Shown one piece after another: positions 1,156 through 31,813 of a DNA stretch of 32,751 nucleotides. Source of the DNA: Intrasporangium sp. (GTDB lineage: Bacteria; Actinomycetota; Actinomycetes; Actinomycetales; Dermatophilaceae); NCBI RefSeq assembly GCF_030452765.1, contig NZ_JAKDLO010000025.1:1-32751 (forward strand). The letters run 5' to 3'. A model generated the notes under the pieces. It saw only the letters and a list, made by a program, of their open reading frames with translations, made no database searches and was not told the origin of the DNA. Every line of letters starts with the position of its first letter. Position 1 is the first letter of the stretch. Position numbers and translations under genes: made by a program.

Positions 1156-1180
1156 GACCCCGCAGCCTAGCGAGGCCCGG

Positions 1181-1201: not shown

Positions 1202-1229
1202 GGGAAAGGCCGCTCTCGGGCCGAACGCC

Positions 1230-2983: not shown

Positions 2984-2997
2984 CCTTGCACTCCTGC

Positions 2998-5697
2998 TCA
3001 CGTCATCCCCCGGCGACCAAGGTCCTTGCGGACGAGCGCCGGACGGACGACGACCTCGGCCCCGAGCGCGTCGACGCCACCGCTCCACGCATTGACCGGG
3101 TTGAGCTCGACGCCGGCGAGCTCGGGGTGGTCGTCGGCCATCACCGAGAGCCGGGCCACGAGGTCGCGCAGCGCGGCGCGATGCACCGGCGCGGCGCCCC
3201 GGTGCCCGGTGAGCAGCGGGGCCGCCTTGACACTGGTGATCAGGTCTCGTACGTCGACATCGGTCAGCGGCGGGATCCGGTAGGCGACGTCGTCGAGCAG
3301 CTCGGTCGGTGGCCCCGCCACGGAGAAGCTGACCACAGGCCCGAACAACGGGTCCTCCTGGGTACTCAGGACGCAGGACACCCCGGGCACCGCCATACGC
3401 TGGACCGCGAAGCTGCCGTCGGCCAGGGCACCCAGCCGCTCGCTGAGGGACTCGTACGCGTCGCGGACGGCCTCGGCGTCGCCCAGGTCGCCCCGGACGC
3501 CGACGATCCCGGGCTGGTGTCGCACGACCCGTGAGGTCGACTTGAGGATGACCGGGTAGGAGAGGCGTTCCGCAGCGGCCACCGCCTCGTCGACGGAGCC
3601 GACCGCGACCGCGGGCCAGAGCTGGATCCCGTAGCTCTCGAGCACCTCGCTCACCTCGTCGCGGGTCAGCGTCCGACCCTCGGGGCTCTCGAGCAGGACC
3701 CTGGCGATCAGGGCCTCGGCCCGCAACCGGTCGACGCCGGCGGGTGCCACCAGCGCACCCCGGTCCTTGGCGCGCCACTGCGCGTAGTGCGTCACAGCGT
3801 TGAGCGCACGGATCCCGTCCTCGGGCATCGTGTACGCCGGGACGATCCGCTGTGTCCCGCCGGCGTCCGCATAGGTGAGGCCCCCCTCGACGCCCCGTAT
3901 CCCCAGGAAGGTCGCCACACACGGCTTCTGGTGCCGGCCGGCCACGGTCCGAAGGGCCGCCGTGAGGTCCTCGTCACGGGTGGCCAGCGGGCGGATGAAC
4001 CCGGCGACGACACTGTCGACCTCGGGGTCCGCAAAGGCCGCCTCGAGGGCATCGGCGAACTCGTCGGCGCTGGCCTGCGCCGGCAACGACACCGGACCGT
4101 GCGTGACCTGCAGGCCCCAGCTCAGGCACGCCGAGGCACTGATCGCGCCCAGGGCATCGGAGTTGCCGACGATCGCGACGCGGCCCCCGGACGGGAGCGG
4201 CTGGTGCAGGGTGAGCTGGGCGACGTCGAAGAGCTGATGGATGTTCTCGACGCGGATGACGCCCGCCTGCCGCAGCAACGCGTCGAAGGCCCGCGGCGAC
4301 ACCCGGGTCTGCCGGGTCCGGTGCCCCGGTGGGGCGGCGAAGCTCGACACCCCGGAGGAGACGGCGACAACGGGCTTGACCATCGCGAGCTGCCGGGCGA
4401 TCCGCGAGAACTTGCGCGGGTTGCCCATCGACTCGAGGTAGAGGCCCACGGTGTCGGTGTCGGCATCGTCGATCCAGTACTGCATGAGGTCGTTGCCCGA
4501 CACGTCTGCCCGGTTGCCCGCCGAGGCGAAGACGGAGATCCCCAGACCGCGCCGGGCGGCCGAGGCGAGCACTGCGACCCCGAGTGCGCCGCTCTGGGCG
4601 AAGAGACCGAGCCGGCCCGCAGGCGGGACGACCGGTGCGAGGGTGGCATTGAGCCGGACGTCCGTGTGGGCGTTGATGAGCCCGAAGCTGTTCGGCCCGA
4701 CCATGCGCATCCCGGAGAGGCGGACCGTGCGCCGGAGCTGCTCCTGACGCTCGGCACCCTCGGAGCCGGCCTCCGCGAACCCCGCCGACATGACGAGCAG
4801 GGCCTTGACACCCGCCCGGGCGCAGTCGCTCACGACACCCTGCACCTGCTCGGCAGGCACGAGTACCACTGCGAGGTCGACCGGCCCGGGCAGGTCCATG
4901 AGGGACCGGTGAGCCGCCACCCCCTGCACCTCCTCGGCCTCGGGGTGGACCACGAAGAGCTCGCCGCGGTAGCCCGAGGCGAGGATGTTGGCCAGCACCA
5001 TCGCGCCGACGGAGTCCGGCCGCCGGCTGGCACCGATGACCGCGACCCGCTCCGGGAACAGGATCGTGCGCACGCTTCGAGACTCGGCCCGGTGCTCTCG
5101 GGACAGGGCGACCGCCTTCGACTGCTCGGTCGGCTCGATCCCGAAAGACAGGTCGACGACGCCGTCCTCCACCCGGTGGACCACCTCGTAGCCTGCGTCC
5201 TTGAACACCATGAGCATCTTGCGGTTCTGGGGCAGCACCTCGGCGGTGAACTTCTCGATGCCGATCTCACGGGCGACCGCAGCGAGGTGCTCGAGCAGGA
5301 CCGAGCCGATGCCGCGGCCCTGGAACCGGTCGGAGATGTTGAAGGCCACCTCTGCCGAGGAGGTCCCCTCGAGCAGGTCGAAGCGGCCCACGCCGACGAT
5401 GTCGTCACCGACGGTCGAGACGAGTGCGACCCGGTTGTGGTAGTCGACATGGGTGAAGCGGTGCAGGTCGCGGTCGCTCAGCTCCCTGAGGGGAGCGAAG
5501 AACCGCAGGTAGATCGACTCCTCCGACTGGGCGTTGTGGAACTTGCGCAGCGCCTCCGCGTCGTCGGGGGTGATCGGGCGGATATGGGCCACGGACCCGT
5601 CCCGGAGGACGACGTCGGCCTCCCACTGCTGCGGGGGTGCAGGCGGTGGGGCCTCGGCGGACTCCCGCACACCGGGCCGCGTCTCAGCGTCGGACAT
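2998..5697 (-). CDS. GNAT acetyltransferase / NDP-forming acyl-CoA synthetase-like fusion (Pat-type protein acetyltransferase)
   Basis: An 899-residue fusion. Residues about 30-190 form a GNAT domain (the acetyl-CoA loop FQGRGIGSVLLEHL is clear). Residues about 215-680 form the CoA-binding and ligase-CoA domains typical of ADP-forming acetyl-CoA synthetases (FPERVAVIGASRR, GPNSFGLIN, LFAQSGALGVA). Residues about 690-890 form an ATP-grasp domain (YPVILKSTSR, VELNPVNAW). The family includes bacterial lysine acetyltransferases of the Pat/PatZ type, which tune acyl-CoA synthetases. In E. coli PatZ the GNAT is C-terminal; here it is N-terminal, as in actinobacterial Pat proteins. The usual phospho-His HTGAL block appears as PPGHRTRQTRV, so the ligase half may be a sensor and not an enzyme; that is inference. 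It is divergent from the nitroreductase gene, with a 67-bp shared upstream region. Confidence 0.87.
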   Translation of the reverse strand: MSDAETRPGVRESAEAPPPAPPQQWEADVVLRDGSVAHIRPITPDDAEALRKFHNAQSEESIYLRFFAPLRELSDRDLHRFTHVDYHNRVALVSTVGDDIVGVGRFDLLEGTSSAEVAFNISDRFQGRGIGSVLLEHLAAVAREIGIEKFTAEVLPQNRKMLMVFKDAGYEVVHRVEDGVVDLSFGIEPTEQSKAVALSREHRAESRSVRTILFPERVAVIGASRRPDSVGAMVLANILASGYRGELFVVHPEAEEVQGVAAHRSLMDLPGPVDLAVVLVPAEQVQGVVSDCARAGVKALLVMSAGFAEAGSEGAERQEQLRRTVRLSGMRMVGPNSFGLINAHTDVRLNATLAPVVPPAGRLGLFAQSGALGVAVLASAARRGLGISVFASAGNRADVSGNDLMQYWIDDADTDTVGLYLESMGNPRKFSRIARQLAMVKPVVAVSSGVSSFAAPPGHRTRQTRVSPRAFDALLRQAGVIRVENIHQLFDVAQLTLHQPLPSGGRVAIVGNSDALGAISASACLSWGLQVTHGPVSLPAQASADEFADALEAAFADPEVDSVVAGFIRPLATRDEDLTAALRTVAGRHQKPCVATFLGIRGVEGGLTYADAGGTQRIVPAYTMPEDGIRALNAVTHYAQWRAKDRGALVAPAGVDRLRAEALIARVLLESPEGRTLTRDEVSEVLESYGIQLWPAVAVGSVDEAVAAAERLSYPVILKSTSRVVRHQPGIVGVRGDLGDAEAVRDAYESLSERLGALADGSFAVQRMAVPGVSCVLSTQEDPLFGPVVSFSVAGPPTELLDDVAYRIPPLTDVDVRDLITSVKAAPLLTGHRGAAPVHRAALRDLVARLSVMADDHPELAGVELNPVNAWSGGVDALGAEVVVRPALVRKDLGRRGMT

Positions 5698-5764
5698 GTC
5701 GCCATCGTGTCACGACCGGCCATGGCAGGACCCTCGGGCAGCGCCCGGATGCGAGAGTGAACCC

Positions 5765-6373
5765 ATGGAGTTCGACGAGGTGGTGCGTCGGCGCCGGATG
5801 GTGCGCCGCTACGACCCCGACCGCCCGGTTCCCGACGAGGTCCTCCTTCGCTGCCTCGACAACGCGGTCCGCGCCCCGAGCGCCGGCTTCAGCCAGGGGT
5901 GGGACTTCGTCGTCCTGCGAACGGACGACGAGCGCACCCGCTTCTGGGCAGCCACCACGGATCCGGGCGAGCGAGCGGACCCGTGGCGCAGCGGCATACA
6001 GGATGCGCCGGTGCTGATCCTCTGCCTGTCGCACAAGGACGCCTACCTCGATCGCTACGCCGAGCCGGACAAGGGATGGACCGATCGGAGCGAGAACCAC
6101 TGGCCGGTGCCCTACTGGGACATGGACGCGGGCATGGCGGCGCTGCTGATCCTGCTCACCGCCGTCGACGCGGGGCTCGGCAGCCTCTTCTTCGGGGTGC
6201 CGATGCAGTGTCACCCCGCGGTCCACGAGCAGTTCGGCATCCCGGGGGGTCGCACCGTGGTGGGAGTGGTCTCGCTCGGCTACGCAGTGCCGGGGCCGAA
6301 GAGCCCCAGCCTGCGGCGGCATCGACGCACCGGGGCGCAGGTGAGCCACTGGGGCCGGTTCGGGCGGCAGTAG
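5765..6373 (+). CDS. Nitroreductase family protein (FMN-dependent)
   Basis: A 202-residue protein with the nitroreductase N-terminal signature (EVVRRRRMVRRYDPDRPVP, where the Arg cluster contacts the FMN phosphate). It also has the RAPSAGFSQGWDFVV segment and the C-terminal VVGVVSLGYAVPGPKSP block. The central WDMDAGMAALLILLTAVDAGLGSLFF helix is typical of the dimer core. It would reduce nitro compounds, quinones or similar with NAD(P)H; the physiological substrate cannot be told. The ATG at 5765 gives the family's normal length. The frame is open upstream, but that stretch is antisense to the fusion gene's start. It is a monocistronic-looking gene, 91 bp before parC. Confidence 0.9.
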   Translation: MEFDEVVRRRRMVRRYDPDRPVPDEVLLRCLDNAVRAPSAGFSQGWDFVVLRTDDERTRFWAATTDPGERADPWRSGIQDAPVLILCLSHKDAYLDRYAEPDKGWTDRSENHWPVPYWDMDAGMAALLILLTAVDAGLGSLFFGVPMQCHPAVHEQFGIPGGRTVVGVVSLGYAVPGPKSPSLRRHRRTGAQVSHWGRFGRQ

Positions 6374-6464
6374 CCCGACCTCACGGCGTGGCAGCGCAGC
6401 CGCGTGCCTCGGGCTGGGGGATCATGGGGTGTTCACCCGCCGACCCCAAGGAGCACGACTCGGC

Positions 6465-8927
6465 ATGGCCCGCCGCACGAGCACCGCACCACCGGAGGAC
6501 TTCGAGGAGAAGATCGTCGGCATCGACGTGCAGGAGGAGATGCAGAACGCCTTCCTCGAGTACTCCTACTCCGTCATCTACTCCCGTGCCCTGCCGGATG
6601 CGCGCGACGGGCTCAAGCCGGTGCAGCGGCGCATCCTGTATGGCGCCAGCGAGCTGGGTCTGCGACCCGATCGAGGGCACGTCAAGAGCCAGCGCATCAT
6701 CGGCGAGGTGATGGGCAAGTACCACCCGCACGGCGACCAGGCGATCTACGACGCCCTGGTGCGGATGGCCCAGCCGTTCACCCTCCGGCTGCCCCTCATC
6801 GACGGGCACGGCAACTTCGGCTCCCTCGACGACGGACCGGCGGCCGCCCGCTACACCGAGGCCCGCCTCGCCCCTGCGGCGCTGCTCATGGTGTCGGGAC
6901 TCGACGAGGACACGGTCGACTTCGTCCCGAACTACGACGACACGCAGCTACAGCCGGGTGTGCTACCGGCGGCCTACCCGAACCTGCTTGTCAACGGCGC
7001 CTCGGGCATCGCCGTGGGCATGGCGACCAACCTGCCTCCGCACAACCTCGTCGAGGTCGTCGGCGCGGCTCGCCACCTCATCGACCACCCGGACTGCTCC
7101 CTCGATGACCTCATGAAGTTCGTCCCCGGTCCGGACCTGCCGACCGGCGGGCGGATCGTCGGGCTCGACGGGATCCGGGACGCCTACCTGACCGGTCGCG
7201 GCAGCTTCCGCACCCGGGCCACGACCCGCATCGAGTCGGTCACGCCGCGCCGCAAGGGCATCGTGGTGACCGAGCTGCCGTATCTCGTCGGCCCCGAGAA
7301 GCTCTTCGAGAAGATCAAGGACCTCGTCGAGGCCAAGAAGCTGCAGGGCATCTCGGACCTGAAGGACCTGTCCGACCGACAGCACGGTATGCGCCTGGTC
7401 ATCGAGGTCAAGAACGGCTTCAACCCCGAGGCTGTCCTCGAGCACCTCTACCGGCTGACGCCGATGGAGGAGAGCTTCGGCATCAACAACGTCGCGCTCG
7501 TGGACGGGCAGCCGCGCACCCTGGGCCTGAAGGAGCTGCTGCGGGTCTACGTCGAGTTCCGGACCGACGTCGTGCGGCGCCGCTGCGCCTTCCGGCTGCG
7601 CAAGCGGGAGGAGCGTCTGCACCTCGTCGAGGGGCTGCTCGTCGCGATCCTCGACATCGACGAGGTCATCCAGCTGATCCGCTCCTCCGACGACGCGGCC
7701 ACCGCGCGCACCCGGCTCATGGACGTCTTCGACCTCTCCGAGGTGCAGGCCACCTACATCCTCGACCTGCAGCTGCGGCGGCTGACGAAGTTCTCCCGGA
7801 TCGAGCTCGAGAACGAGAAGAGCGACCTCGAACGGGAGATCGAGTCGCTGCGAGCCCTGCTCGAGAACGAGAAGCTGCTGCGCCGGCTCGTCTCGGACGA
7901 GCTGGCCGACGTGGCGAAGGCGCATGGCACGCCTCGACGCACCGTCCTGCTCGAGAGCTCAGGCGCGGCCGCGGCGTCGGCCCCGCTCGAGGTCAGCGAC
8001 GACCCGTGCTGGGTGCTCCTCTCGTCGACCGGGTTGCTGGCGCGCACCTCGAACGCCGAGCCTCCGGGCTCCGAGGGTGCCCGCGCCAAGCACGACGCGA
8101 TCATCGGTGCGGTTCCCACGACCAACCGGGGCGAGGTGGGGCTGGTGACGAGCACCGGACGGATGGTGCGTCTGGCGGTGCTCGACCTGCCCGCGCTACC
8201 GCCCACCAACGGAGCACCGAGCCTGTCCGGTGGTGCGCCGCTGGCCGCCTACGTCGACCTTGCGACCGGGGAGGAGCCGGTGACGATCGTCCCCATCGGG
8301 GGCAACGCCCCCGCGCTCGCGCTCGGGACCGCACAAGGGGTCGTCAAGCGGGTGACGTCCGACGCGCCCAAGAGCTCCAGCTGGGAGGTCATCGCCCTCA
8401 AAGCCGGCGACCGCGTCATCGGCGTCGGAGTCGCGGCAGACCCCGCCCTCGACCTGGTCTTCATCACGAGCGACGCCCAGCTCTTGCGGTTCGGCGCCGG
8501 CACGGTGCGCCCGCAGGGTCGCAGCGCGGGCGGGATGGCCGGGGTGCGGCTCTCGCCCGGGGCCGAGGCGGTCTTCTTCGGCGTCGTCGACCCTCGGCAC
8601 GAGGCAGCGGTCGTCACGTCGGCCGGGTCCTCCGCCGCGTTGCCGGGCACGGTGGGTGGCTCGCTCAAGGTCACGCCGTACCGCGAGTTCCCCGCGAAGG
8701 GGCGCGGCACAGGTGGCGTGCGCTGCCACCGGTTCCTCAAGGGCGAGGACGTCCTCGTCCTCGCCCACGCCGGCAACACGCCGCTGCGTGCCAGCGCGGC
8801 GGCCGGCGTCGCAGTCGAGCTGCCTGCCGCGGACGGGCGCCGGGACGGCTCCGGCATGCCGACGACGCGGGTCATCGACCGCATCGCCTCGGCCGTCGGA
8901 GCTGTCCAAGGGGTCTCGGACGCCTGA
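6465..8927 (+). CDS. parC: DNA topoisomerase IV subunit A
   Basis: An 820-residue type IIA topoisomerase breakage-reunion subunit. With ParE it decatenates and relaxes DNA. The winged-helix core contains the active-site tyrosine Tyr130 in AARYTEARL, and the quinolone region is [10 protein letters not shown] at 88-97. The C-terminal part is a divergent beta-pinwheel without a good GyrA box (QRRGGKG); the nearest match is [11 protein letters not shown]. That lack, plus the convergent partner parE, argues for topoisomerase IV and against gyrase. I chose the ATG at 6465 because AAGGAG (6448-6453) precedes it; a GTG at 6429 is possible but has no family similarity upstream. The quinolone-contact position (Ser83 in E. 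coli GyrA) is Gln92. Confidence 0.93.
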
Positions 8928-8942
8928 GCCGCCTCAGGCGTC
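8919..8942. terminator. Bidirectional hairpin shared by parC and parE, containing both stop codons
   Basis: GACGCCTGAG at 8919-8928 and its exact reverse complement CTCAGGCGTC at 8933-8942 form a perfect 10-bp stem with a CCGC loop. The parC stop TGA (8925-8927) is in the left arm and the parE stop (TCA on the plus strand, 8934-8936) is in the right arm. The genes converge with only 6 bp between stops. There is no T-tract, which is common in high-GC actinobacteria. Function as a bidirectional terminator or mRNA 3'-end stabiliser is inferred. Confidence 0.72.
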
Positions 8943-11048
8943 GATCCGCTCCCGGTCGACCTCCGAGGCAGAGTCGATGATGAACTCCTTGCGCGGCGCC
9001 ACGTCGCTGCCCATGAGCAGCTCGAAGACTCCCTCGGCAGCCTCGAGGTCGCGCATGGTGACCCGTCGCAGGGTGCGGTGCCGAGGATCCATCGTCGTAT
9101 CGGCCAGCTGGTCGGCGTCCATCTCGCCCAGGCCCTTGTAGCGCTGCAGGGGCTGCTTGATCCGCTTGCCCTTCTTCTCCAGGGCGCTGACGGTCCGCCG
9201 CATCTCGGGCTCGTTGTACGTGTAGATGAGCTCGTTCTTCTTCGCCCCGTTGCCGATGACCTCGATCCGGTGCAACGGTGGCATTGCCGCGAAGACCCGC
9301 CCGGCCTCGACCAGAGGGCGCATGTACCGGAAGAACAGGGTGAGCAGGAGCGTGCGGATGTGGGCGCCGTCGACGTCGGCGTCGGTCATGATGATGACCT
9401 TGCCGTAGCGGGCGGAGTCCAGGTCGAAGGTGCGGCCCGACCCGGCACCGATGACCTGGATGATCGAAGCGCACTCGGCGTTCTTGAGCATGTCCTGGAT
9501 CGAGGCCTTCTGGACGTTGAGGATCTTGCCCCGAATCGGCAGGAGGGCCTGGAACTCTGAGCTGCGGGCCTCCTTGGCCGTGCCCATCGCCGAGTCGCCC
9601 TCGACGATGAACAGCTCCGAACGATCGACGTCGTGGGTGCGGCAGTCGCGCAGCTTGGCCGGCAGGGTCGAGGACTCGAGCGCATTCTTGCGCCGTTGCG
9701 TCTCCTTGTGCAGCCGGGCGCTGATGCGCGTCTTCATCTCGGTCACGACCTTCTCGAGCAGCCGGGCCGACTGGTCCTTGTCGCCGCGCTTGCTCGAGGT
9801 GATCCGTGCCGTCAGCTCCTTCTCGAGGACCTTCGCGACGATGGCGCGCACCGCCGAGGTGCCGAGGACCTCCTTGGTCTGCCCCTCGAACTGCGGCTCG
9901 GCGAGGCGGACCGTGACGATCGCGGTGAGCCCGGCCAGGACGTCGTCCTTCTCCGGCTTGTCGCTGCCGGTCTTGAGCCGTCGCGCATTCAGCTCCAGCT
10001 GCTTGCGGAAGACCTTGAGCAGGGCCTGCTCGAACCCGGTGAGGTGCGTGCCCCCTTTGGGAGTGGCGATGATGTTGACGAAGGACTGGACGCGGGTCTC
10101 GTAACCCTGTCCCCAGCGCAGCGCGATGTCGACCCCGCACTCCCGCTCCACCTCGGTCGGGGTCATATGGCCGCGGTCGTCCAGGACCGGGACGGTCTCG
10201 GTGAAGCTGCCGGACCCGGTCAGGCGCCACACGTCGGTGATGCCGGCGTCCGGTGCGAGGAAGTCGACATACTCGGCGATGCCACCCTCGTGCTGGAAGA
10301 CCTCCTCGGCCGGGGCGTCCTGCTCCCGGCCGGGACGCTCGTCGCGCAGCTCGAGGCGCAGACCCGGCACGAGGAACGACGTCTGCCGGGCTCGCGCCGC
10401 GAGGGCGTCGTAGTCCAGGGTGGCGTCCTTGAGGAAGATCTGCCGGTCGGGCCAGAACCGGACCCGGGAACCGGTCACGCCCCTCTTGACCTTGCCGACC
10501 ACGGGCAGGGCTCGCTTGGACTCGTACGCCGCGAACTGCGCCTCGGGCGAGTGGACCCCGACGGAGTCGGTGAACGTACCGGGCTCGCCCCGGCGGAAGC
10601 TCATCCCGTAGGTCTTGCCCTCGCGGTCGACCGCGACGTCAAGCCGGGCCGAGAGGGCGTTGACGACCGAGGCACCGACGCCGTGCAGCCCTCCCGACGC
10701 GGAGTACGAGCCGCCCCCGAACTTGCCGCCGGCGTGCAGCTTGGTGAAGACGACCTCGACCCCCGACAGACCGGTGCGCGGCTCGATGTCGACCGGGATC
10801 CCCCGTCCGTCGTCACGCACGACGATCGACCCGTCGGCCCCGAGGATGACCTGGATCTCGGTGCAGACACCGGCGAGGGCCTCGTCGACCGCGTTGTCGA
10901 TGATCTCCCAGAGGCAGTGCATGAGCCCGCGCTGGTCGGTCGAGCCGATGTACATCCCGGGTCGCTTGCGAACGGCCTCGAGGCCCTCGAGAACCTGCAG
11001 GTGACGGGCGGTGTAGTCGCCGTTGGTGGAGGTAGGGCGGGATGCCAC
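8934..11048 (-). CDS. parE: DNA topoisomerase IV subunit B
   Basis: A 704-residue ATPase subunit of type IIA topoisomerase. Visible elements in order are: the GHKL ATP site (EIIDNAVDEALAG, DDGRGIPVDI, GGLHGVGASVVNALS), the transducer (QSFVNIIATPKGGTH) and the TOPRIM domain (ELFIVEGDSAMGTAK; IIMTDADVDGAHIRTLLLT). The C-terminal PLQRYKGLGEMDADQL block closes the protein. Start choice: GAGG lies 8 nt before a GTG at 11048, whereas an ATG at 11054 sits only 2 nt from it and a GTG at 11075 has no Shine-Dalgarno; all three are in frame. It is convergent with parC. Confidence 0.94.
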   Translation of the reverse strand: MASRPTSTNGDYTARHLQVLEGLEAVRKRPGMYIGSTDQRGLMHCLWEIIDNAVDEALAGVCTEIQVILGADGSIVVRDDGRGIPVDIEPRTGLSGVEVVFTKLHAGGKFGGGSYSASGGLHGVGASVVNALSARLDVAVDREGKTYGMSFRRGEPGTFTDSVGVHSPEAQFAAYESKRALPVVGKVKRGVTGSRVRFWPDRQIFLKDATLDYDALAARARQTSFLVPGLRLELRDERPGREQDAPAEEVFQHEGGIAEYVDFLAPDAGITDVWRLTGSGSFTETVPVLDDRGHMTPTEVERECGVDIALRWGQGYETRVQSFVNIIATPKGGTHLTGFEQALLKVFRKQLELNARRLKTGSDKPEKDDVLAGLTAIVTVRLAEPQFEGQTKEVLGTSAVRAIVAKVLEKELTARITSSKRGDKDQSARLLEKVVTEMKTRISARLHKETQRRKNALESSTLPAKLRDCRTHDVDRSELFIVEGDSAMGTAKEARSSEFQALLPIRGKILNVQKASIQDMLKNAECASIIQVIGAGSGRTFDLDSARYGKVIIMTDADVDGAHIRTLLLTLFFRYMRPLVEAGRVFAAMPPLHRIEVIGNGAKKNELIYTYNEPEMRRTVSALEKKGKRIKQPLQRYKGLGEMDADQLADTTMDPRHRTLRRVTMRDLEAAEGVFELLMGSDVAPRKEFIIDSASEVDRERIDA

Positions 11049-22924: not shown

Positions 22925-22960
22925 GCGCCTCGGCCCGCCACAACGCCTCGGCCCGTCACA
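22925..22960. repeat. Two 18-bp tandem repeats (plus a partial third) at the 3' ends of two convergent genes
   Basis: The units at 22925-22942 and 22943-22960 share CGCCTCGGCCCG followed by CCACA or TCACA, with two mismatches overall; a partial third unit starts at 22961. They fill the 39-bp space between the polyprenyl synthase stop and the Rv2175c-like stop, and the second unit contains that stop codon. Confidence 0.7.
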
Positions 22961-23339
22961 GCGCCTCCGCCTGGGCCCGCCGGCGGACCTCCCGCTTCCG
23001 CCCGGCCCACAGCGCGTCGATCGGAGCACCCGGCACGGGCAGCGACTCGTCGGGGGTGAAGAGCCACCGGATGATCTGCACGTCATCCATGCCGCCGTCC
23101 GCGAGCACGGTGATCGTCCCCTTCAGGTCCGCGCGCGGACCGACCTCGTCGTAGAACCGCGCCGGCACGGCAACCACGGACCGCCCCCCGATCCGCGCCG
23201 CGACGACCTCGCGCTCGGCGATGGACTGGCGCACCCGACTGAGCGGCATACCCAGGCGCTCCGCGACCTCAGGGACGGTCAGCCACTCACCGACGAGGGC
23301 CTCCAGATCGGGGTCGAGGGACTGGGACGGCGCGCTCAC
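22956..23339 (-). CDS. Rv2175c-like DNA-binding regulatory protein
   Basis: A 127-residue protein with an N-terminal winged helix-turn-helix (WLTVPEVAERLGMPLSRVRQSIAERE, about residues 19-44) and a C-terminal domain with the DVQIIRWLFTPDESL block. It resembles M. tuberculosis Rv2175c, a DNA-binding protein that is a substrate of the neighbouring kinase PknL. The GTG at 23339 is chosen to give MSAPSQSLDPDLEALVGEWL. In this window the pknL-like gene has been moved 6.4 kb away by a transposon, whose left end is 68 bp upstream of this start. The promoter must lie in that remaining stretch or in the transposon end. Confidence 0.87.
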   Translation of the reverse strand: MSAPSQSLDPDLEALVGEWLTVPEVAERLGMPLSRVRQSIAEREVVAARIGGRSVVAVPARFYDEVGPRADLKGTITVLADGGMDDVQIIRWLFTPDESLPVPGAPIDALWAGRKREVRRRAQAEAL

Positions 23340-23401
23340 GCGGCCAGTCTGCCACCAGCGACTCCCTCCATGGGCCCCTCTGCGTCGCCCGCCCACCGGC
23401 C

Positions 23402-23406
23402 CTCTA
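23402..23406. repeat. Left target-site duplication of the Tn3-family element (CTCTA)
   Basis: CTCTA directly abuts the left inverted end at 23407 and recurs directly after the right inverted end at 29793-29797. Five-bp duplications are the rule for Tn3-family insertion. Confidence 0.75.
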
Positions 23407-23444
23407 CGGGGTTGAGGAACAACGGACAGCGGTTAGCGGTAGCG
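23407..23444 (+). repeat. Left terminal inverted repeat
   Basis: The first 20 bp are identical to the reverse complement of the right end, starting with the GGGG typical of Tn3-family 38-bp ends. The next 18 bp align with three mismatches and small indels. Confidence 0.88.
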
Positions 23445-23572
23445 GCCGCCGAGCGGGTGGCAGTGTCGCGTCGGGCCCGTACGCTTGGAGTGCCTGCGGC
23501 AGTGGCTGCAGGAAGTGAGCCCGAGACCCGGCCGGACGACCGTGGCGCCCGGGCTTCGCGGCGTTCAGGGGG

Positions 23573-24178
23573 TCAGGGGCGTCTTGTCGCCTTCGGCTCT
23601 CCGGTCCGTTGCACTGCCCGGTAGACGGTGGAGCGGCCCACGTTGAACAGGTCGGCCAGGTCGGTGGAGGTGTGCTTGCCGCCGCGCCACAGCTCGACCA
23701 GGTGCACCTCTTGGGCTGGTCTGAGCTTGGGTTGCTTACCGCGCAGCCGGCCCTTGGCCTTGGCAACCTTCATCCCTTCCCGGGTGACGCATCCGGATCA
23801 GGTCCGACTCAAACTCGGCAATCATAGCCAGGACATTAACAGCAGCCGACCGACCGGGCAGTCGGGTCGTGCACTGGTCGTGCACCGATCCGCCGATGTT
23901 GAGCTTCACCTGCGCCTGGGTGAGTTCTTCGACGATGTTGCGGGCATCGATCAGGGACCGGGCGAGCCGGTCGAGCTTGGTGACGACGAGGATGTCGTCG
24001 GCGTGGCAGGCGGCGAGAGCCTCGCGCAGTCCGGGGCGGGCTCGGTTGGTGCTGGTCAGCCCGTGGTCGACGTAGATCCGCTCAGGCTTCACCCCAGCGA
24101 CTCGAGCGCGTCGCGTTGGGCGGTGAGGTCCTGGTCGTCGGTCGAGCAGCGGGCGTACCCGACGAGCATCGTGGCCAT
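23573..24178 (-). pseudogene. tnpR: Serine resolvase (TnpR) with multiple frameshifts
   Basis: From ATG 24178 the frame reads MATMLVGYARCSTDDQDLTA, with the nucleophilic Ser in CSTDDQD, and ends at a TGA created by loss of one G in a G-run (plus strand about 24092-24095). A second frame carries VKPERIYVDHGLTSTNRARPG, VVTKLDRLARS and AEFESDLIRMR, then an extra base near 23787 shifts it again. The third frame encodes the C-terminal helix-turn-helix (AKAKGRLRGKQPKL; LADLFNVGRSTVYRAVQR). An 11-bp tandem duplication (GTCGTGCACTG, about 23867-23887) adds a locally scrambled stretch. The recombinase is therefore inactive. Its position next to one end fits a Tn3-family module. Confidence 0.85.
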
Positions 24179-24487
24179 CGGTGACTGTACCGGTTGAGCC
24201 CGCTTCACCGGGCACCGGGCATTAGATCGGGCGGGTCTTACGGGATCAGGAGATGGCCGGTGCTCCGCAGAACCGGCGGCACTGCCGAAGGGGCGCGGAG
24301 TGTCCCGTTGGGGGATTGGGGGCGCTCATCGGTCCAGGCTGGCGAATAGGTCGGCCCCGAACTCTTCGATGTTCATCCTGTTGTTGATATCCCTCAGGGC
24401 TTCCGCGCGGCCGGCTTAAGATCACGCCGTCCAGTTCGCTGCTGTCGGGGCTGGGTTCGATCCCCTCGGTGAGGGCGAGTCGTCCGA
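24179..24487. other. Decayed stretch between tnpR and the permease gene
   Basis: The minus strand shows two coherent peptide scraps in different frames: LALTEGIEPSPDSSELDGVI just after the permease stop, and EALRDINNRMNIEEFGADLF ending at a TGA near 24330. They look like parts of one frameshifted gene downstream of the permease, but I do not recognise the family. If the Tn3 element had a res site it would be expected upstream of tnpR, in this area; I could not identify its subsites. Confidence 0.3.
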
Positions 24488-25846
24488 CTACTCCACGATG
24501 GTCATCTCTGGCGGTGGGACGCGGAGCCCACGGGTGAGGACGAGGAGGTACACCACGCCAAGGGTGAGCCAACTTGCCCCGAGGGTCAGTGCCGCGCTGT
24601 CGAGCTTGGTGAGCAGGTAGACGTCGACAATGGCGCCGATGAGGGGCACCACGACGTAGGTGGCGGGGTTGAGGCGGGACCCGGCTTCGGTGTGGCGGTG
24701 CCGTAGGAAGTAGCCGATCACGGACAGGTTCACCAGAGTGAATGCGGTGAAGGCGCCGAAGTTGATGAAGGAGGTCGAGGTGGCGACGTCGAGGAACAGT
24801 GCTCCGAGGCCGATGAGTCCACAAAGCACGATGTTGAGGATGGGAGTGGCGAACCGGTCGGAGAGCCGGCCGAAGAATCTTTTGGGGAGGACGCCGTCAC
24901 GGCCCATGGCGTACAGGAGCCGGGAGACGCTGGCTTGGGCGGCCAGCCCGGAGGTGAACTGGCCGATGATCAGACCGGTGAGGAAGACTGCGGCGAACAG
25001 CGCCCCGCCGATGGTCTTGGCGGTGTCCGCGGCCAGTGAGTCGGCATTGGCGAATGAGGAGCCGGGCTCGACGAGGGTCAGGGTGTAGGCGACGGTGACG
25101 AACACGGCCCCGCCGATGAGAGCGATGAGCATGATCGCGCGGGGAATGTTGCGCTGGGGGTCCCGGGTGTCCTCGGTGAGCGTGCTGACCGCGTCGAAGC
25201 CGAGGAAGGAGTACGCCGCGATCGCGCCGCCTGCGGCGATGGCGGAGAAGCCGCCCTCCCCCGTGAACGGGTTGGTCGACAGCAGCGAACCGCCGCCATG
25301 GTGGGACACCAAGTAGATGACCGCGAACAGGACGAAGAGGGCCAGCACCAGGAACTGCATGGCCATCAGCGCGAAGTTCGCCTTGTCCGCCACTTTCAGC
25401 CCGATGATGTTGAGGGCGGTGGTGGTCAGGATGAACAGTACGATCCACACCCACGTCGGCACCGAGGGGAACTGGCCGGTGAGGTAGGCAGCGCCGATCA
25501 ACCAGATCACCAGGGGCAGGAAAAGGTAGTCCAGCAGAATCGTCCAGCCGACGATGAAGCCAAGCCTGGCGTCTAGGGCCTTGCGCACGTAGGTGTAGGA
25601 GGAGCCGGCGACAGGGTAGTGCCTGGACATCTTTGCGTAGCTCGCGGCGGTGAACAGCATGGCCACCGTCGCCAAAAGGTAGGCACCGGCGCTGGCCCCC
25701 TTCGACGTTTCGGCGATGATGCCGAAGATGCCGAGGACGATGATGGGCGTCATGTAGGCCAGGCCGAACAAGGTCACCGATCTCAGACCGAGCGATGGCT
25801 CGAGGCGGGTCGGGTGGCTGGCTTGGTGGGTCTGCTCAGCAGTCAT
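24488..25846 (-). CDS. APC superfamily amine/amino-acid permease, PuuP-like
   Basis: A 452-residue integral membrane transporter with about 12 hydrophobic segments. TM1 contains LFGLAYMTPIIVLGIFGII with the glycine-broken helix typical of APC carriers. Further blocks strongly recall the E. coli putrescine importer PuuP: YPVAGSSYTYVRKAL, VGWTILLDYLFLPLVIWL, AYSFLGFDAVSTLTEDT, ASVSRLLYAMGRDGVLPKRFFG and INFGAFTAFTLVNLSVIG. A proton-coupled uptake of an amine or amino acid is likely; the exact substrate is inferred. Its ATG overlaps the stop of the upstream hydrolase gene (ATGA), so the two are translationally coupled. The frame is intact, unlike the transposition genes around it. Confidence 0.87.
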   Translation of the reverse strand: MTAEQTHQASHPTRLEPSLGLRSVTLFGLAYMTPIIVLGIFGIIAETSKGASAGAYLLATVAMLFTAASYAKMSRHYPVAGSSYTYVRKALDARLGFIVGWTILLDYLFLPLVIWLIGAAYLTGQFPSVPTWVWIVLFILTTTALNIIGLKVADKANFALMAMQFLVLALFVLFAVIYLVSHHGGGSLLSTNPFTGEGGFSAIAAGGAIAAYSFLGFDAVSTLTEDTRDPQRNIPRAIMLIALIGGAVFVTVAYTLTLVEPGSSFANADSLAADTAKTIGGALFAAVFLTGLIIGQFTSGLAAQASVSRLLYAMGRDGVLPKRFFGRLSDRFATPILNIVLCGLIGLGALFLDVATSTSFINFGAFTAFTLVNLSVIGYFLRHRHTEAGSRLNPATYVVVPLIGAIVDVYLLTKLDSAALTLGASWLTLGVVYLLVLTRGLRVPPPEMTIVE

Positions 25847-26733
25847 CGGTGATCCCCGGGATTTGGGTTACGGGGTTGCCAGTGGCCTTGCGCCATGTGG
25901 CCGTTGTAGGCGGGGAGGTCGATCGGGTCGTCGTCGGCGTGTAACTGCTGCCACATCCGGTTGAGACCGGCGGTGCCGCGGGTGCGTACCTCGCTCACCC
26001 GGTCGAGGTCGAGTACAAGGTGGGTTACCTCGCGTTCGGCGTGTGTGATCTCTGCCAGCACCTCGCCTTCTGGCCCGACGTAGATGCTTTGTCCCCGCCC
26101 GGGCGGGCCGGCGGCGTTTACGCTGAGGTAGAAGACCTGGTTCGCGATCGCGTTGGCCCGTGCGAGGACGAGTTCCTGCGCGCGGTCGGGTGTGGTGGTC
26201 TTGACGATGTTGAGGACAACCTCGGCGCCGTGCCAGGCGATCTGGCGCGTCGCCTCGGGGAACCAGCTGTCGTAACAGATGTTGATCCCCATCCGGCCGG
26301 CTTGGGGCACGTCGAAGGCCGTGAAATCTGTGCCCGACGCCCACGGCTCATGGGGTCGCCACGGGAAGACCTTGCGGTAGGACGAGACGAGTCGTCCTTC
26401 GGGGTTGTAGACGAGCGCCGTGTTGAATATCCGACCGTCGGCGCCACGTTCGGCGATGGAGCCCGGCACCAACCAGGCGCCAGCGTCCGCCGCCACCTGC
26501 CCTAGCGCTGCCACAAGCGGGCCCGTGAGGGGTTCGGCAACCCGGGCGAAGAAGGCCCAAGGGTCGTCCTCGCCATCCTTGTCTCCGAGAAGATGGACTT
26601 CGGGGAACACCACCATCTGGGTGTCCGGGCGGTCCTTCAGGATGCCGGCGACGTCGTCGGCGAACTTGGCCAACCTGTCTGCCCCGCTCACCGGCCGGGC
26701 CTGAACAAGGGCCGTCCGCCAGAGTCTCGTCAC
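25843..26733 (-). CDS. Nitrilase superfamily (carbon-nitrogen hydrolase) amidohydrolase
   Basis: A 296-residue enzyme with the complete Glu-Lys-Cys triad: Glu45 in VVFPEVHL, Lys121 in SYRKVFPWRPHEP and Cys153 in GINICYDSWFPE. This family cleaves amides, carbamoyl amines or nitriles through a thioester intermediate. The C-terminal segment (GLNRMWQQLHADDDPIDLP) suggests an amidase-like subgroup, but the substrate is unknown. The GTG at 26733 is fixed by GGAGGT about 6 nt upstream. It is coupled by a 4-bp overlap to a PuuP-like permease, which suggests import and hydrolysis of an amide or a polyamine-like compound. It is carried inside the degenerate transposon and appears intact. Confidence 0.87.
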   Translation of the reverse strand: MTRLWRTALVQARPVSGADRLAKFADDVAGILKDRPDTQMVVFPEVHLLGDKDGEDDPWAFFARVAEPLTGPLVAALGQVAADAGAWLVPGSIAERGADGRIFNTALVYNPEGRLVSSYRKVFPWRPHEPWASGTDFTAFDVPQAGRMGINICYDSWFPEATRQIAWHGAEVVLNIVKTTTPDRAQELVLARANAIANQVFYLSVNAAGPPGRGQSIYVGPEGEVLAEITHAEREVTHLVLDLDRVSEVRTRGTAGLNRMWQQLHADDDPIDLPAYNGHMAQGHWQPRNPNPGDHR

Positions 26734-26806
26734 ATCGACACCTCCATCGATTCAGCTGGTTGGCGCGATCCCGCTGTACTTTCGCGGAAGGACGCGCTCC
26801 CATCTT

Positions 26807-26923
26807 TCAAAGCTTGGACGGCGCCGTGCCGCGTCGCTGTCCCTGTGCGCCATCGACCAGCCCTACCACGGGATCGGCCTGCCCGTCACCGAGGTTGGTC
26901 CAGTCGACGCTAAGGGAACTCAT
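26807..26923 (-). CDS. Short open frame with a strong Shine-Dalgarno, possibly a truncated gene
   Basis: An ATG at 26923 preceded by GGAGG with 6-nt spacing opens a 38-codon frame beginning MSSLSVDWTNLGDGQADPVV and ending at TGA 26807-26809. It is the first reading frame upstream of the hydrolase (73 bp before its start) and could be a leader peptide or the N-terminus of a gene truncated in the element. I do not recognise it. Confidence 0.35.
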   Translation of the reverse strand: MSSLSVDWTNLGDGQADPVVGLVDGAQGQRRGTAPSKL

Positions 26924-27092
26924 GTGAACCTCCGGTTGATCGCAGAACCCATATGACCGACATCACTTTCGGAAGAGCCATGCTGCAACAACTCGGAGAT
27001 TTCCGATGTGCAATGCGGGCGCCGCCGCTGAGGTCAGATGTCCTGGGCCGTGAGCTGGAGCGCGATCCAGGCCCGACGCGCACCCTGGGGTC

Positions 27093-27122
27093 CTCGAGAG
27101 GGCTCCCCAGAGCCCTCTCGAG
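27093..27122. terminator. Perfect 13-bp hairpin with CCCA loop
   Basis: CTCGAGAGGGCTC (27093-27105) and its exact complement GAGCCCTCTCGAG (27110-27122) form a long stem. It lies between the decayed recombination genes and the cargo operon, and has no T-tract. It could terminate transcription entering from the right or insulate the cargo promoter. An alternative pairing CTGGGG/CCCCAG overlaps it. Confidence 0.6.
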
Positions 27123-27231
27123 CTGGCCCAGGCGGTTGCCAACAGTGATTCGTTGAATCCCCAGCTCTTGGACGAGGCACTCGAAACGGTGGAAGAGGAA
27201 GCGCTCGGCGCGCTGCAACACCTTGACAGGA

Positions 27232-27318
27232 CCGATAGCGGTACACCTCGCGGATCTCCCACGCGTGCTCGTACGCCGTCTGCGGGCACTACACATGCCG
27301 CTTCACACCCGGGGCCAA
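27232..27318 (-). pseudogene. tnpA: Internal scrap of Tn3-family transposase (TnpA, N-terminal DUF4158 region)
   Basis: The minus strand reads APGVKRHV, a TAG (plus strand 27289-27291) where a Glu codon would be expected, then QTAYEHAWEIREVYRYR. The (T/A)YEHAWEIRE block is a hallmark of the Tn3-family TnpA N-terminal domain, about 100 residues from the start. Similarity ends abruptly after YRYR. The TnpA start itself is 2.4 kb away at 29688, with other genes inserted between. Confidence 0.6.
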
Positions 27319-28213
27319 GGAGCCGGTTGTGGACCTTGGTGTAGAAGATCGCCACGCGCTGCCCGTCGGCGGTCAGGTCGTAGGTGTTGCTCTTCGGCCG
27401 TCGCGCGATCAGGCCCTTGCGGTGTAGCCGGGCCAGGTCGTAGCTCATCTGGTTGACGGTGTACTCGGCGGTCGGAACGCCGCGCAGCTGGCTCACCTGG
27501 GCACGCAGGCTCCGGTTGGTGAAGCCGAGGGAGTTCAAGGCGACGCACAGGGCGCCGAGCAGGGCCATGACCCGAGGATCTCCGAACCGTAGTGCGGGCG
27601 ACCTCCTGCCATCGTCGGTGACGGTGGACTGTGCGACCCGCTCAAAGGCTGGGCTCGCAAGGACACAACCCTGCCCGACACGTTCAGTATCGAGCAGGCG
27701 GGCATTGATGGCACGACCCTTGGCCTGGAGCTCGTCGAGATGTTCCAGACGCCGGTGACACAGGAGATCGTTGGGCTTGTTGATGACGGTCTCGACCCGC
27801 AGCGCACGGCCGTCCTTGAGGTACTGCTTGATCCGGGAGTTCTTGAAGAAGGCGTTGATGGTGAGCCCGACCGTGTCACGGGTGACGACCTTGGTCTTGA
27901 AGGTCTGCTCCACCACCGGTGGTCGACCACGGCCGGCCCGATGACCGCGGAAGATGAGCTCGATGTTCTCTGGCCGCCCGATCTCGAGGTTGTCGATCAC
28001 CAACGCCTCGAAGAACCCACGGGCGTGCCGTGGGGCGTCGAAGACGATGGTCCGGCAGACCTCGATGTGACGCATCGACACCCCCCACCAGTACCCGCCC
28101 TCCCGGTCCGTGGGTGTCAGGGGCAGGGGGAGCCGGCCCATCCATCGTTGGAAGAACACCTCGATGGCCCCGGGTCCGAGGCGATCGCAGATCGCCTGCA
28201 AACCGGCAGGGCC
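27319..28213 (-). pseudogene. C-terminal half of a conserved mobile-element protein of unknown function
   Basis: About 298 codons without a stop, starting GPAGLQAICDRLGPGAIEVF and continuing through RHARGFFEALVIDNLEIGRP, NSRIKQYLKDGRALRVETVI and RFGDPRVMALLGAL to a winged-helix-like end (ARLHRKGLIARRPKSNTYDL; IFYTKVHNRLL). I recognise this as a family of roughly 450-550 residues found in bacterial mobile elements, without a known activity. Its N-terminus lies at 29486-29593; the two halves are separated by a tyrosine-recombinase fragment. After HNRLL the sequence switches to TnpA, so the natural C-terminus is also lost or disrupted. Confidence 0.6.
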
Positions 28214-29487
28214 ACCCGGCGCAGGGTCCGCCCGGCCACGGTGCAGTCCTGGCCGGGCGCGGTGGTCCCCGCGGCGGCCAGGGACTGCGCGGCCACCGCG
28301 CGTCGGGCCTCGACCGCGGCGATCAGGGCGGTAACAGCGGGAGGCGTTGCGGGTGCGCTGGTCCATCCGGGACTTGCGCCGATCGGCTTCCTTGCGGTGC
28401 GGGATCTCTGCGGCCCGGATGGGGCTGGGGACCGCCCAGGGCGCCCACCTGGCCGGGTCGTCGGTGGCCCACTGGGCGATGTCGAGGTAGAACGCGCGTA
28501 CCGTCGCCAGGCAACTGGTGGCTCTGCGACGCGGGCTGTGGACCTCGGTGACGGTGCCGTCGGGCTGGCGGCGGCGGGTCGTCTTCATCCCGATGCGGGT
28601 CTTCCATCCGGCCGCGATCGCCGGGGCCAGTCGGAGCGAGTCGATCCCGGGGTGGTGCAGCTCCAGGTCCCGCCAGAACAGCCGCCCGAGGGTGTCGGCC
28701 AGCCGCACCAAGGTGACGTGGTCGAGGTTGACCTGGCGTTCCCGCAGGTAGTCGACCAGCAGCTCGCGCACCGGCTGGGCTTGAATCCCGCAGCGATCGA
28801 CCAGCTGCTGCACGCTGAGCTGCCGCTGGTCGCACTGCGCCCGCACCGTTGGCGCGGCGGTGCCGTCGAGCACGCCCAGGGCGTGCAGCAGCTGATAGAA
28901 GTACGGGCTCCGGTAGTGGGTCAGGTGCACACATCGGCGGCGACATCGAGGAGCTGCAGGCAGTCGCCGACGGTGATGTCGGCGACCCCGCCGCCCTTGA
29001 CTGCCATGATCACCGCGACCCGGTGCAACGCCACCCGGGTGGTGGACTCGCCGACCGGGTTGGCCTGACACAGTGCGGTCAGCTCGGCGAACCCTGCCGG
29101 GTCGCGGGTCCGGGCCATCTCGGCGGCCAGGCGTTTCGGGGTGGCCGGGGTCAGCAGCCAGGCCGGCTCGGGCCGCATCACGTCGGCACAGATCCGCGTC
29201 AGCAGGCCGGTGCCGAGCACCGCCGTGTCGAACCGGCAGTCGAACCCGGTGGTGGCCTTGCGCCGCCGGATCGGCATGGTCCTCCAGTCGGTGCGGCCGT
29301 CCTGACCGGCGCCGCTGGCCAGCAACCGCTGTTGCCAGGTGTCCCCGGGCTGCGCCTGCAGCCAGTCCAGGACGAAACGAACACCACGACGGCGGTTCTC
29401 CTCGCCGGACTCGGTGTCCGCGACGAACGGCGCGGCATGGAGCCGCTGCAGCAGCCCGGGCCTGGCCAGCCTGGTCGGCAGCCACAC
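28205..29487 (-). pseudogene. Tyrosine-recombinase/integrase-like gene fragment, frameshifted, lacking catalytic domain
   Basis: Frame one runs RLARPGLLQRLHAAPFVADT, RRGVRFVLDWLQAQPGDTWQ and VGDCLQLLDVAADVC. A shift near 28925 leads to HYRSPYFYQLLHALGVL, VRELLVDYLRERQ, LFWRDLELHHPGIDSLRLAP and VRAFYLDIAQWATDDPARWA, ending in SRMDQRTR. A second shift near 28330 continues as a helical linker before the fragment stops at about 28205. This is the N-terminal, core-binding-like half of the large transposon-associated tyrosine recombinases of actinobacteria. The catalytic R...HxxR...Y half is missing, so it is non-functional. Confidence 0.55.
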
Positions 29488-29593
29488 CGACCTGCAAGTG
29501 CGGCACATACCCATTGAGATAGATCCGGTCCAGGCACTGCACATCGAGCACGACATGACCATCGTAGAAGATCACCGATCCGAAGCACGTCAC
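29486..29593 (-). pseudogene. N-terminal piece of the split conserved mobile-element protein
   Basis: The frame from 29593 reads VIFYDGHVVLDVQCLDRIYL and NGYVPHLQVG, the characteristic N-terminus of the family whose C-terminal half lies at 27319-28213. It is in the same frame register as that half. After LQVG the similarity jumps to the tyrosine-recombinase fragment, so the gene was interrupted at this point. Confidence 0.6.
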
Positions 29594-29643
29594 CCATCAC
29601 AACAGCGTGCGCCCACAGACCCGCCCAGGCCAGCCCCAGACTC

Positions 29644-29688
29644 GGCGTACGCGGCGACCTGCTCATCGCTGAGGAACTCCACCGGCAT
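29644..29688 (-). pseudogene. tnpA: 5' end of Tn3-family transposase gene (TnpA)
   Basis: ATG 29688 opens MPVEFLSDEQVAAY, the standard N-terminus of Tn3-family TnpA (DUF4158 domain), about 100 bp inside the right inverted end, which is the expected place. Similarity stops after 14 codons; the frame then meets a TGA about 18 codons later. Confidence 0.68.
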
Positions 29689-29754
29689 GAGGCACGACGG
29701 TAGACCCACGACCAGCACCACACGGGCGAGCCGCTGAGCTGTGCCAAAATCGCG

Positions 29755-29792
29755 CCTATCGCTCACCACTGCTCCGTTGTTCCTCAACCCCG
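29755..29792 (-). repeat. Right terminal inverted repeat
   Basis: Read on the minus strand from 29792, this repeats the left end exactly for 20 bp and then imperfectly for about 18 bp. Confidence 0.88.
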
Positions 29793-29797
29793 CTCTA
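29793..29797. repeat. Right target-site duplication (CTCTA)
   Basis: Direct copy of 23402-23406, abutting the right inverted end. Confidence 0.75.
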
Positions 29798-29866
29798 CGA
29801 CGCACGGGCAGGGCAGGCGGCCGCGGGCTGCGGCCGCGCCTGGTCAGGATCACCGCCGCTGTTACG

Positions 29867-29872
29867 TAAACT
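29867..29872 (+). promoter_or_regulatory. Candidate -10 element of pknL; transcript may be leaderless
   Basis: TAAACT fits TANNNT and ends 6 nt before the GTG start at 29879, so transcription would start at or next to the start codon. No Shine-Dalgarno precedes the GTG. It lies outside the transposon, between its right end and pknL. Confidence 0.45.
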
Positions 29873-29878
29873 CTCCCC

Positions 29879-31813
29879 GTGACGTCCAGCGTGACGGACG
29901 CGCTCGTCGGTCAGGTCATCGACGGCCGCTACCGCATCCTCAGCCACCTCGCGGACGGGGGCATGGCCTCCGTCTACGTGGCGATGGACGCACGCCTCGA
30001 GCGCCGGGTCGCCCTGAAGATCATGCGTCCGGGCCTGGCCTCCGACCACCTCTTCGTCGACCGGTTCCGCCGCGAGGCCCGGGCCGCGGCTCGCCTGAGC
30101 CATCCCAACGTCGTGGCGGTCTTCGACCAGGGCGAGGACGGCGGTGAGGTCTTCCTCGTCATGGAGCTCGTGGCGGGCAAGACGCTGCGCGAGGTGATCC
30201 ATGCGGAGGCGCCGCTCACGGCCCGCGAAGCCCTCGCCGTCCTCGAGCCGATCCTCGAGGCGCTGCGCGCAGCCCACGACGCCGACATCATCCATCGTGA
30301 CGTCAAGCCCGAGAACGTCCTCGTCCGCACCGACGGCGAGGTCAAGGTCGCCGACTTCGGCCTGGCCCGCGCGGCCGGCAGCCAGAGCACGACCAGCCAG
30401 AGCGGCGTCGTGCTCGGCACGGCGTCATACCTGTCCCCCGAGCAGGTCGAGCACGGCACGTCCGATGCCCGCAGCGACCTCTATGCGGCCGGGCTGCTCC
30501 TCTTCGAGATGCTGACGGGGCGCAAGGCCGTCACCGGCGAGACCGCCATCCAGATCGCCTACCGCCACGTGCACGGCACGATCGAGCCCCCGTCCGAGAT
30601 CGTCCCGACCGTACCTACCGCCCTGGACGAGATGGTCGCGCGGGCCACCGCCACCGAGCCGGCCGACCGGTTCCCCGACGCCGCGACCTTCCTGGGGGCC
30701 CTGCGCAGTGTGCGCGGCCTGCTCTCGAGCGATGAGCTCGACCGCCGCGGCGTCGCCGGACCCGCTCCAGAAGCACCCTCGGAGCCCGACGCGCACCGGT
30801 CGACGAGCCCGACGCAAGCGCTGGGCACCACGACGGACCCACCGGCGGCACCTGCGGCCCACGAGGCGGCCCCGGTCCTCTCCCCGACTGCCGCGCTGCC
30901 GATTCCCGCCACGAACCAGCGGCCCCGCACCAGACGCAGGTGGCCCCTCGTCGCGCTGCTGCTGAGCCTGCTGGTGCTGGGCGGGTCCGCGGGATGGTGG
31001 TTCACGGTGGGGCCGGGCGGCACGACGCTCGTTCCTGACGTCGCCGGCGTCCGCCTCGAGCAGGCCGAGGGCAGCCTCGTCGCGCGCCACCTGCGGGGGG
31101 CACCGACCGAGGCGTTCTCGGAGTCGGTGCCCAGAGGGCAGGTGATCGGGCTGACCCCGACCGCCGGCACCGAGGTACGCAAACGCAGTGTCGTCACCCT
31201 CGTGGTCTCCAAGGGCCCGGAACGCTACACCGTGCCGGACCTGACCGGTGTCAAGGCCGGCCAGGTCGAGCGGACGTTGCACAAGCTCACCCTCACTCTC
31301 GGCCCACGCACCGAGCAGTGGAGCGAGACGGTCCCCAAGGGCGAGGTCGTCAGCCAGGACCCGGCCACGGGCACGTCCGTAGGGCGCGGCGCCGCCGTCT
31401 CCCTCGTCGTGTCCAAGGGCCGCGAGCCCATCACCGTCCCCGAGGTCGTAGGTAAGCCGCTCACCGACGCACAGGCCGCGATCACGGCGGCCGGGCTCGA
31501 GATCGAGCGCGCCGACGACGCGCACAGCGGCACGGTCGCCAAGGGCAGCGTCATCTCCCAGAAGCCGGCCGAAGGCACCCTGCACCGCGGCGACAAGGTC
31601 ACCGTCACCGTCTCGAAGGGCCCGGTCATGGTGCAGGTGCCGTCCGTGGTCGGCAAGCGCGTCAAGGCTGCGGAGAAGACGTTGACCGACCTCGGCCTCA
31701 AGGTCAGGATCGAACGGCCGCTCGGCGAGTTCTTCGAGCTCGTGCGCAACCAGAGCGTCCGGGCCGGCCAGAGCGCGCCGAAGGGCTCGACGATCGTGCT
31801 GACGGTGGTCTGA
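29879..31813 (+). CDS. pknL: PASTA-domain transmembrane Ser/Thr protein kinase (PknL-like)
   Basis: A 644-residue receptor-like kinase. The cytoplasmic kinase domain (about 18-280) has the Gly loop LADGGMASVY, Lys47, HRDVKPEN with catalytic Asp141, DFG at 159-161, and an activation loop rich in Ser/Thr before GTASYLSPEQ. A disordered Pro/Ala linker and a single membrane span (about 355-376) follow. Four extracellular PASTA repeats come next, each ending in VVSKG or similar except the last. Such kinases sense cell-wall fragments and regulate growth and division. The neighbour order matches M. tuberculosis Rv2173-Rv2176 (pknL), whose substrate is Rv2175c. The GTG at 29879 has no ribosome-binding site, consistent with a leaderless message. 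The gene is directly followed by a DMT transporter. Confidence 0.9.
   Translation: MTSSVTDALVGQVIDGRYRILSHLADGGMASVYVAMDARLERRVALKIMRPGLASDHLFVDRFRREARAAARLSHPNVVAVFDQGEDGGEVFLVMELVAGKTLREVIHAEAPLTAREALAVLEPILEALRAAHDADIIHRDVKPENVLVRTDGEVKVADFGLARAAGSQSTTSQSGVVLGTASYLSPEQVEHGTSDARSDLYAAGLLLFEMLTGRKAVTGETAIQIAYRHVHGTIEPPSEIVPTVPTALDEMVARATATEPADRFPDAATFLGALRSVRGLLSSDELDRRGVAGPAPEAPSEPDAHRSTSPTQALGTTTDPPAAPAAHEAAPVLSPTAALPIPATNQRPRTRRRWPLVALLLSLLVLGGSAGWWFTVGPGGTTLVPDVAGVRLEQAEGSLVARHLRGAPTEAFSESVPRGQVIGLTPTAGTEVRKRSVVTLVVSKGPERYTVPDLTGVKAGQVERTLHKLTLTLGPRTEQWSETVPKGEVVSQDPATGTSVGRGAAVSLVVSKGREPITVPEVVGKPLTDAQAAITAAGLEIERADDAHSGTVAKGSVISQKPAEGTLHRGDKVTVTVSKGPVMVQVPSVVGKRVKAAEKTLTDLGLKVRIERPLGEFFELVRNQSVRAGQSAPKGSTIVLTVV

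Follow-up and report, generated by a model that had tools for sequence, protein, structure and literature searches.

A defective Tn3-family transposon with permease-amidase cargo between an Rv2175c homologue and a pknL-like kinase gene

When analyzing the window (the whole stretch of DNA studied, 32,751 nucleotides), we found that the region 23407-29792 is, as judged from its sequence, a Tn3-family transposon. We are highly confident that it is a defective member of this family, that it was inserted with duplication of CTCTA between an Rv2175c homologue and a pknL-like gene, that it carries a permease-amidase cargo, and that the gene for a LysM-transglycosylase has apparently been lost at the same place. 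A Tn3-type insertion beside pknL is an ordinary event. As an example of an actinobacterial Tn3 subgroup, the element has well-defined ends and a clean duplication, and its cargo looks catabolic, not like a set of resistance genes. Among the literature matches listed for Tn3 elements of actinobacteria, for their decay and for LysM genes beside pknL, none had a title about this case.

Boundaries of the element

An inverted-repeat comparison gave two arms, 23407-23426 and 29773-29792, which are complementary at 20 of 20 positions and extend to about 38 bp once one 1-base gap is allowed. The left terminal inverted repeat (23407-23444, forward strand) also matches both ends of a transposon in Flexivirga meconopsidis Q11, and the right one (29755-29792, reverse strand) was placed by the inverted-repeat match. 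In 300 Markov-simulated sequences of the 7.2-kb region, inverted matches whose arms stood over 1 kb from each other reached at most 16 bp, against the 20 bp observed. The sequence CTCTA directly abuts the outer edge of each arm (23402-23406 and 29793-29797), as the two copies of a target-site duplication; by our estimate, a flush 5-bp repeat would arise by chance about once in 1000 cases. The first-pass annotation had described the 20-bp identical and roughly 38-bp imperfect inverted ends with CTCTA outside them, and all of these were recovered by sequence comparison.

Tn3-family terminal inverted repeats are about 38 bp long, and 5 bp is the usual length of the target duplication in this family. 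The element agrees with this description in its GGGG-starting ends of about 38 bp and its 5-bp duplication, and it holds a resolvase match (PF00239) in a gene whose frame is broken. A conserved GGGGT box in Tn3-family ends is described in PMC9579193. In the window, the terminal inverted repeat starts with a C ahead of GGGG, and the same extra C is found at three other loci (L034, L037, and L038). Read by eye, the Flexivirga sibling is also C-tipped at each end with a flush duplication outside, so the boundaries 23407 and 29792 look right. The GC content of the element is 67%, against 72-73% in the flanks.

The gap to the Rv2175c-like gene is 67 bp (23340-23406, assuming a start at 23339), and the gap to the pknL-like gene is 86 bp, or 81 bp without the duplication; the earlier figures were about 68 and 87 bp. 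Both neighbouring reading frames are still open, in agreement with the earlier statement that neither gene was obviously destroyed. The ends, the duplication and the sibling elements likewise support that annotation's reading of a Tn3-family element that inserted here and duplicated its target, with an Rv2175c homologue on one side and, on the other, a kinase gene, which is of the PASTA Ser/Thr type.

Broken transposition genes

The transposase and resolvase genes are both broken, a state that the first-pass annotation did not mention. The tnpR gene for a serine resolvase (23589-24215, reverse strand; PF00239), within a 697-bp stretch at 23589-24281, has several frame-changing indels relative to the open gene of the Flexivirga sibling. 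Two remnants of tnpA were located by blastn and tblastn on the reverse strand, one with the first codons (29614-29688, MPVEFLSDEQ...) and the other with codons ~92-119 (27223-27306). Neither holds any part of the DDE domain, whereas the locus L034, with the same ends, has an intact tnpA. Comparisons with the siblings by tblastx were set aside for their many low-identity pieces in GC-rich DNA.

Between the two tnpA remnants sits the sequence of a 538-aa hypothetical protein matching one on a Mycobacterium riyadhense plasmid. By tblastn, its C-terminal part (residues 204-500) lies at 27311-28210 and its N-terminal part (residues 12-37) at 29486-29563, both on the reverse strand. Inside this hypothetical gene, at 28346-29484 on the same strand, there is an integrase-like fragment, spread over two frames, which resembles a Rhodococcus plasmid protein over residues 44-416 of the latter; that protein carries the annotation site-specific integrase. 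The 538-aa protein corresponds to L054, 3877-5493, and is related to Mycobacterium plasmid proteins. The hypothetical and the integrase-like pieces had no Pfam or NCBIfam match. From this arrangement, the transposase end looks as if it underwent nested insertions and deletions, and the 538-aa protein, adjoining integrase-like and transposon relics, is possibly an unrecognised mobile-element protein.

A second Tn3-family element is present in this genome at 554-3868 of contig C122 (L040), with an open 1056-aa TnpA and with ends identical to each other over ~37 bases. These ends have 5 mismatches in 19 positions to those of the window's element. With up to 3 mismatches allowed, the 19-base end occurs in its own genome only at the two ends of the element described here, and mobilisation in trans by the C122 TnpA is therefore unlikely. 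A weak second TnpA match (26%) was found on contig C54.

Cargo genes

Two cargo genes on the reverse strand remain open: one for an APC-family amino-acid permease of 452 aa (24488-25846; PF13520/PF00324), and one for a carbon-nitrogen hydrolase of 296 aa, amidase/formamidase-like (25843-26733; PF00795). The permease start and the hydrolase overlap by 4 bases, and among solved structures the hydrolase has its best relatives in aliphatic amidases and formamidases. Of 248 genomes of the order, 14, this one included, have a match to the hydrolase with an E-value of 1e-40 or lower. Across the loci examined, which cover 12 of those 14 and again include this one, the permease adjoins the hydrolase in nine; at the other three (L047, L048, and L053) the short flanking DNA showed no permease gene.

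Neighbouring genes

The left neighbour is the Rv2175c-like gene (22956-23339, reverse strand; PF18367, PF21531), for which 23339 is the probable start and the longest frame begins at 23396. The right neighbour, assigned by family matches, is the pknL-like gene for a PASTA Ser/Thr kinase (29879-31813, forward strand) with four PASTA matches. The designation pknL is based on gene order; the M. tuberculosis PknL is not known to have a PASTA domain.

A conserved start-proximal sequence precedes the kinase gene (29850-29878, forward strand), with GTAAACT ending 6 nt before the GTG, and is a putative leaderless-type promoter. By eye, a TANNNT box lies a few bases before the start codon in 18 of 19 kinase upstream regions, own included, and it is absent from L016 at the place shown; this count omits L021, and the start is slightly off the aligned one in L009, L010, and L022. 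A TANNNT box near the start resembles leaderless actinobacterial promoters. The 45 bp before the kinase gene, which still hold the box, align with those of G001, a genome of the same genus, with a score of 65; none of 300 shuffles exceeded 35. Read from these bases, the kinase should still be transcribed, and since it keeps its start-proximal conserved sequence, little regulatory effect of the insertion would be expected. The left flank scored 31 against G001, no better than shuffles (maximum 32), and therefore the Rv2175c side of the insertion site is less well anchored; as weaker evidence, the sequence before the Rv2175c-like gene shares 14 bases with G001.

The LysM-transglycosylase gene at the locus

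In G001, whose kinase is 77% identical, a 344-aa LysM-SLT gene oriented like the kinase gene lies between Rv2175c and the kinase. We scanned the neighbours at 20 kinase loci, own included: Rv2175c lies beyond the LysM gene in eight, directly beside the kinase in four, and was not found within the locus DNA in eight, among them our own, where the element intervenes. The 12 relatives' loci with Rv2175c placed thus comprise eight with the LysM gene between (G001 included) and four with adjacent genes (G006, G011, G013, and G024), in which Rv2175c is within ~0.25 kb of the kinase and there is no LysM gene.

On a wider scale, 35 of 51 genomes have a LysM match on the same strand and upstream of the kinase, with our own genome entered as a miss; the distance is 143 bp or less in 34 and 318 bp in one. 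These 51 are the 52 of 58 genomes whose kinase matches were taken as putative orthologues, minus G057, which had no LysM search; for G042, G046, G053, and G056 the kinase match was chosen by higher identity and not by lowest E-value. Six genomes with weak, partial or unlisted kinase matches were dropped (G009, G029, G034, G035, G051, and G054). Among the five of these searched for LysM, four had no match and G029 had one on a contig other than the kinase's, which gives 35 of 56 over all genomes searched for both genes. At E 0.001, a LysM-SLT match is present in 42 of 56 genomes, our own being among those without one. The host genome gave no LysM-SLT match at this threshold; as a draft that is 97% complete, it leaves absence elsewhere uncertain. 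The lineage of this genome appears to have lost the LysM-transglycosylase gene.

These results correct the expectation of Rv2175c-pknL pairing carried over from M. tuberculosis, since in the relatives searched the kinase often follows a LysM-lytic transglycosylase gene. Its position ahead of the PASTA kinase in the family and the order makes a functional link possible, and this neighbourhood may tell more of the kinase's role in the cell wall than the pairing with Rv2175c.

Alternative explanations

A single joint history of insertion and gene loss could be drawn, in which the element entered the 3' part of the LysM-SLT gene, whose remaining part was then deleted on the left. The joined flanks are colinear with the 3' end of the G001 LysM gene, which lies about as far from the kinase start; they score 69, and the right flank by itself scores 65. 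Within the genus, represented by two genomes, the LysM gene is missing from this one only. Nevertheless, we consider such a history unlikely. The match of the left flank to the G001 gene is weak, being equalled by 93 among 2000 random segments, and it is absent in five other relatives; a LysM 3' remnant in this flank was accordingly not accepted. Moreover, G006, G011, G013, and G024 have neither the LysM gene nor room for the element; therefore, the LysM gene can be missing without the element. A broader proposal would have a cassette for amide import and hydrolysis spread by a Tn3-family element, with the arrival of that element tied to the loss of the lytic transglycosylase gene before the PASTA kinase; we regard it as quite improbable.

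The first-pass annotation had proposed that the element landed in a divergent promoter shared by Rv2175c and pknL and so uncoupled a kinase from its substrate. With the LysM gene already gone, the divergent neighbours would have stood 148 bp apart. However, the kinase keeps its own conserved box, and the Rv2175c side keeps the 14 bases in common with G001, which weigh less. A shared promoter as the normal state is not supported, given the gene lying between the two in G001 and in the other relatives of that group, eight of 12 with both placed. Separation as a regulatory event is not supported either: PknL of M. tuberculosis phosphorylates Rv2175c on Thr9, and the review PMC4601284 describes that N-terminal extension as unique to M. 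tuberculosis. With a start at 23339, the first 20 residues of the homologue in the window are free of Thr; the longer frame from 23396 would bring in one. Insertion into a shared promoter with uncoupling of the two proteins is thus very improbable. That two contigs were falsely joined is hardly credible even in a draft of 329 contigs, given that a flush target duplication and matching ends are unexpected from a false join and that the neighbouring genes are open.

For the preferred reading, that of a defective Tn3-family transposon inserted between Rv2175c and pknL, we propose the following course. TnpA-driven replicative transposition, as the Tn3 family would suggest, probably moved the element, and either this copy decayed after insertion or an already-decayed copy was moved by TnpA in trans. 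It now sits where the same-genus genome has the LysM-transglycosylase gene separating Rv2175c and pknL, and the kinase, with its start-proximal sequence kept, would be little affected. Weighing against this reading, no alignable empty site was found in the same genus, where the one genome compared, G001, carries the LysM gene at this place.

Comparison with related elements

The genome contigs were scanned with 19 bases of the element end, which gave five loci; the viral contigs had no match to it. An end match in a Pirellulales contig (L035) was taken as chance by eye. At a Streptosporangium locus (L036), the 19-base end is accompanied by 41 bp that match the start of tnpA, and this locus probably represents a related element or remnant. 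Among 297 genomes of the order scanned, no second genome with a pair of these ends was found, and single one-mismatch end matches in five of them were judged, by eye from the bases beyond, to be chance.

The locus L034, from the Actinomycetota MAG PROP1, is a minimal element at 838-4162. It has the same ends as the window's element, and its tnpA begins MPVEFLSDDQ where ours begins MPVEFLSDEQ. Its ends enclose one open 1050-aa transposase gene and no cargo, unlike the element here, and by eye no flush duplication lies beside them. The transposase matches the NCBIfam Tn3 model NF033527 with 858 bits (cut-off 500), together with Pfam PF01526 (DDE_Tnp_Tn3) and PF13700 (DUF4158), and among the best 12 of at least 5000 records its full-length relatives, 64-66% identical, are on Streptomyces plasmids and annotated as Tn3 family transposase. 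The 12 bases outside one end of L034 (827-838) differ at a single position from those of L037 (316-327), which may reflect a target preference or a shared flank.

A close counterpart is the 10.6-kb Flexivirga transposon (L065, 155-10761), which has the same ends, tnpA and tnpR at opposite ends, and a 5-bp duplication, by eye flush GATCG. Its DNA is 84% identical to the window over the 697-bp tnpR stretch and 86% over 149 bp at the right end and tnpA start (29646-29793); the tnpR end has a further match, 608 bp long and 84% identical, in a Promicromonospora contig (L066). The Flexivirga transposon differs from the element here in its open tnpR, in a tnpA of full length save one in-frame stop, and in its cargo, which at ~4848-9384 seems to comprise thioredoxin-like, CcdA-like and two flavoprotein reductase genes and may be of a mercury-resistance type. 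The cargo of the window has its own parallels on plasmids: the same permease-hydrolase pair lies adjacent on a plasmid of Arthrobacter sp. ERGS1:01, with 68% DNA identity, and the pair is adjacent on Streptomyces plasmids too.
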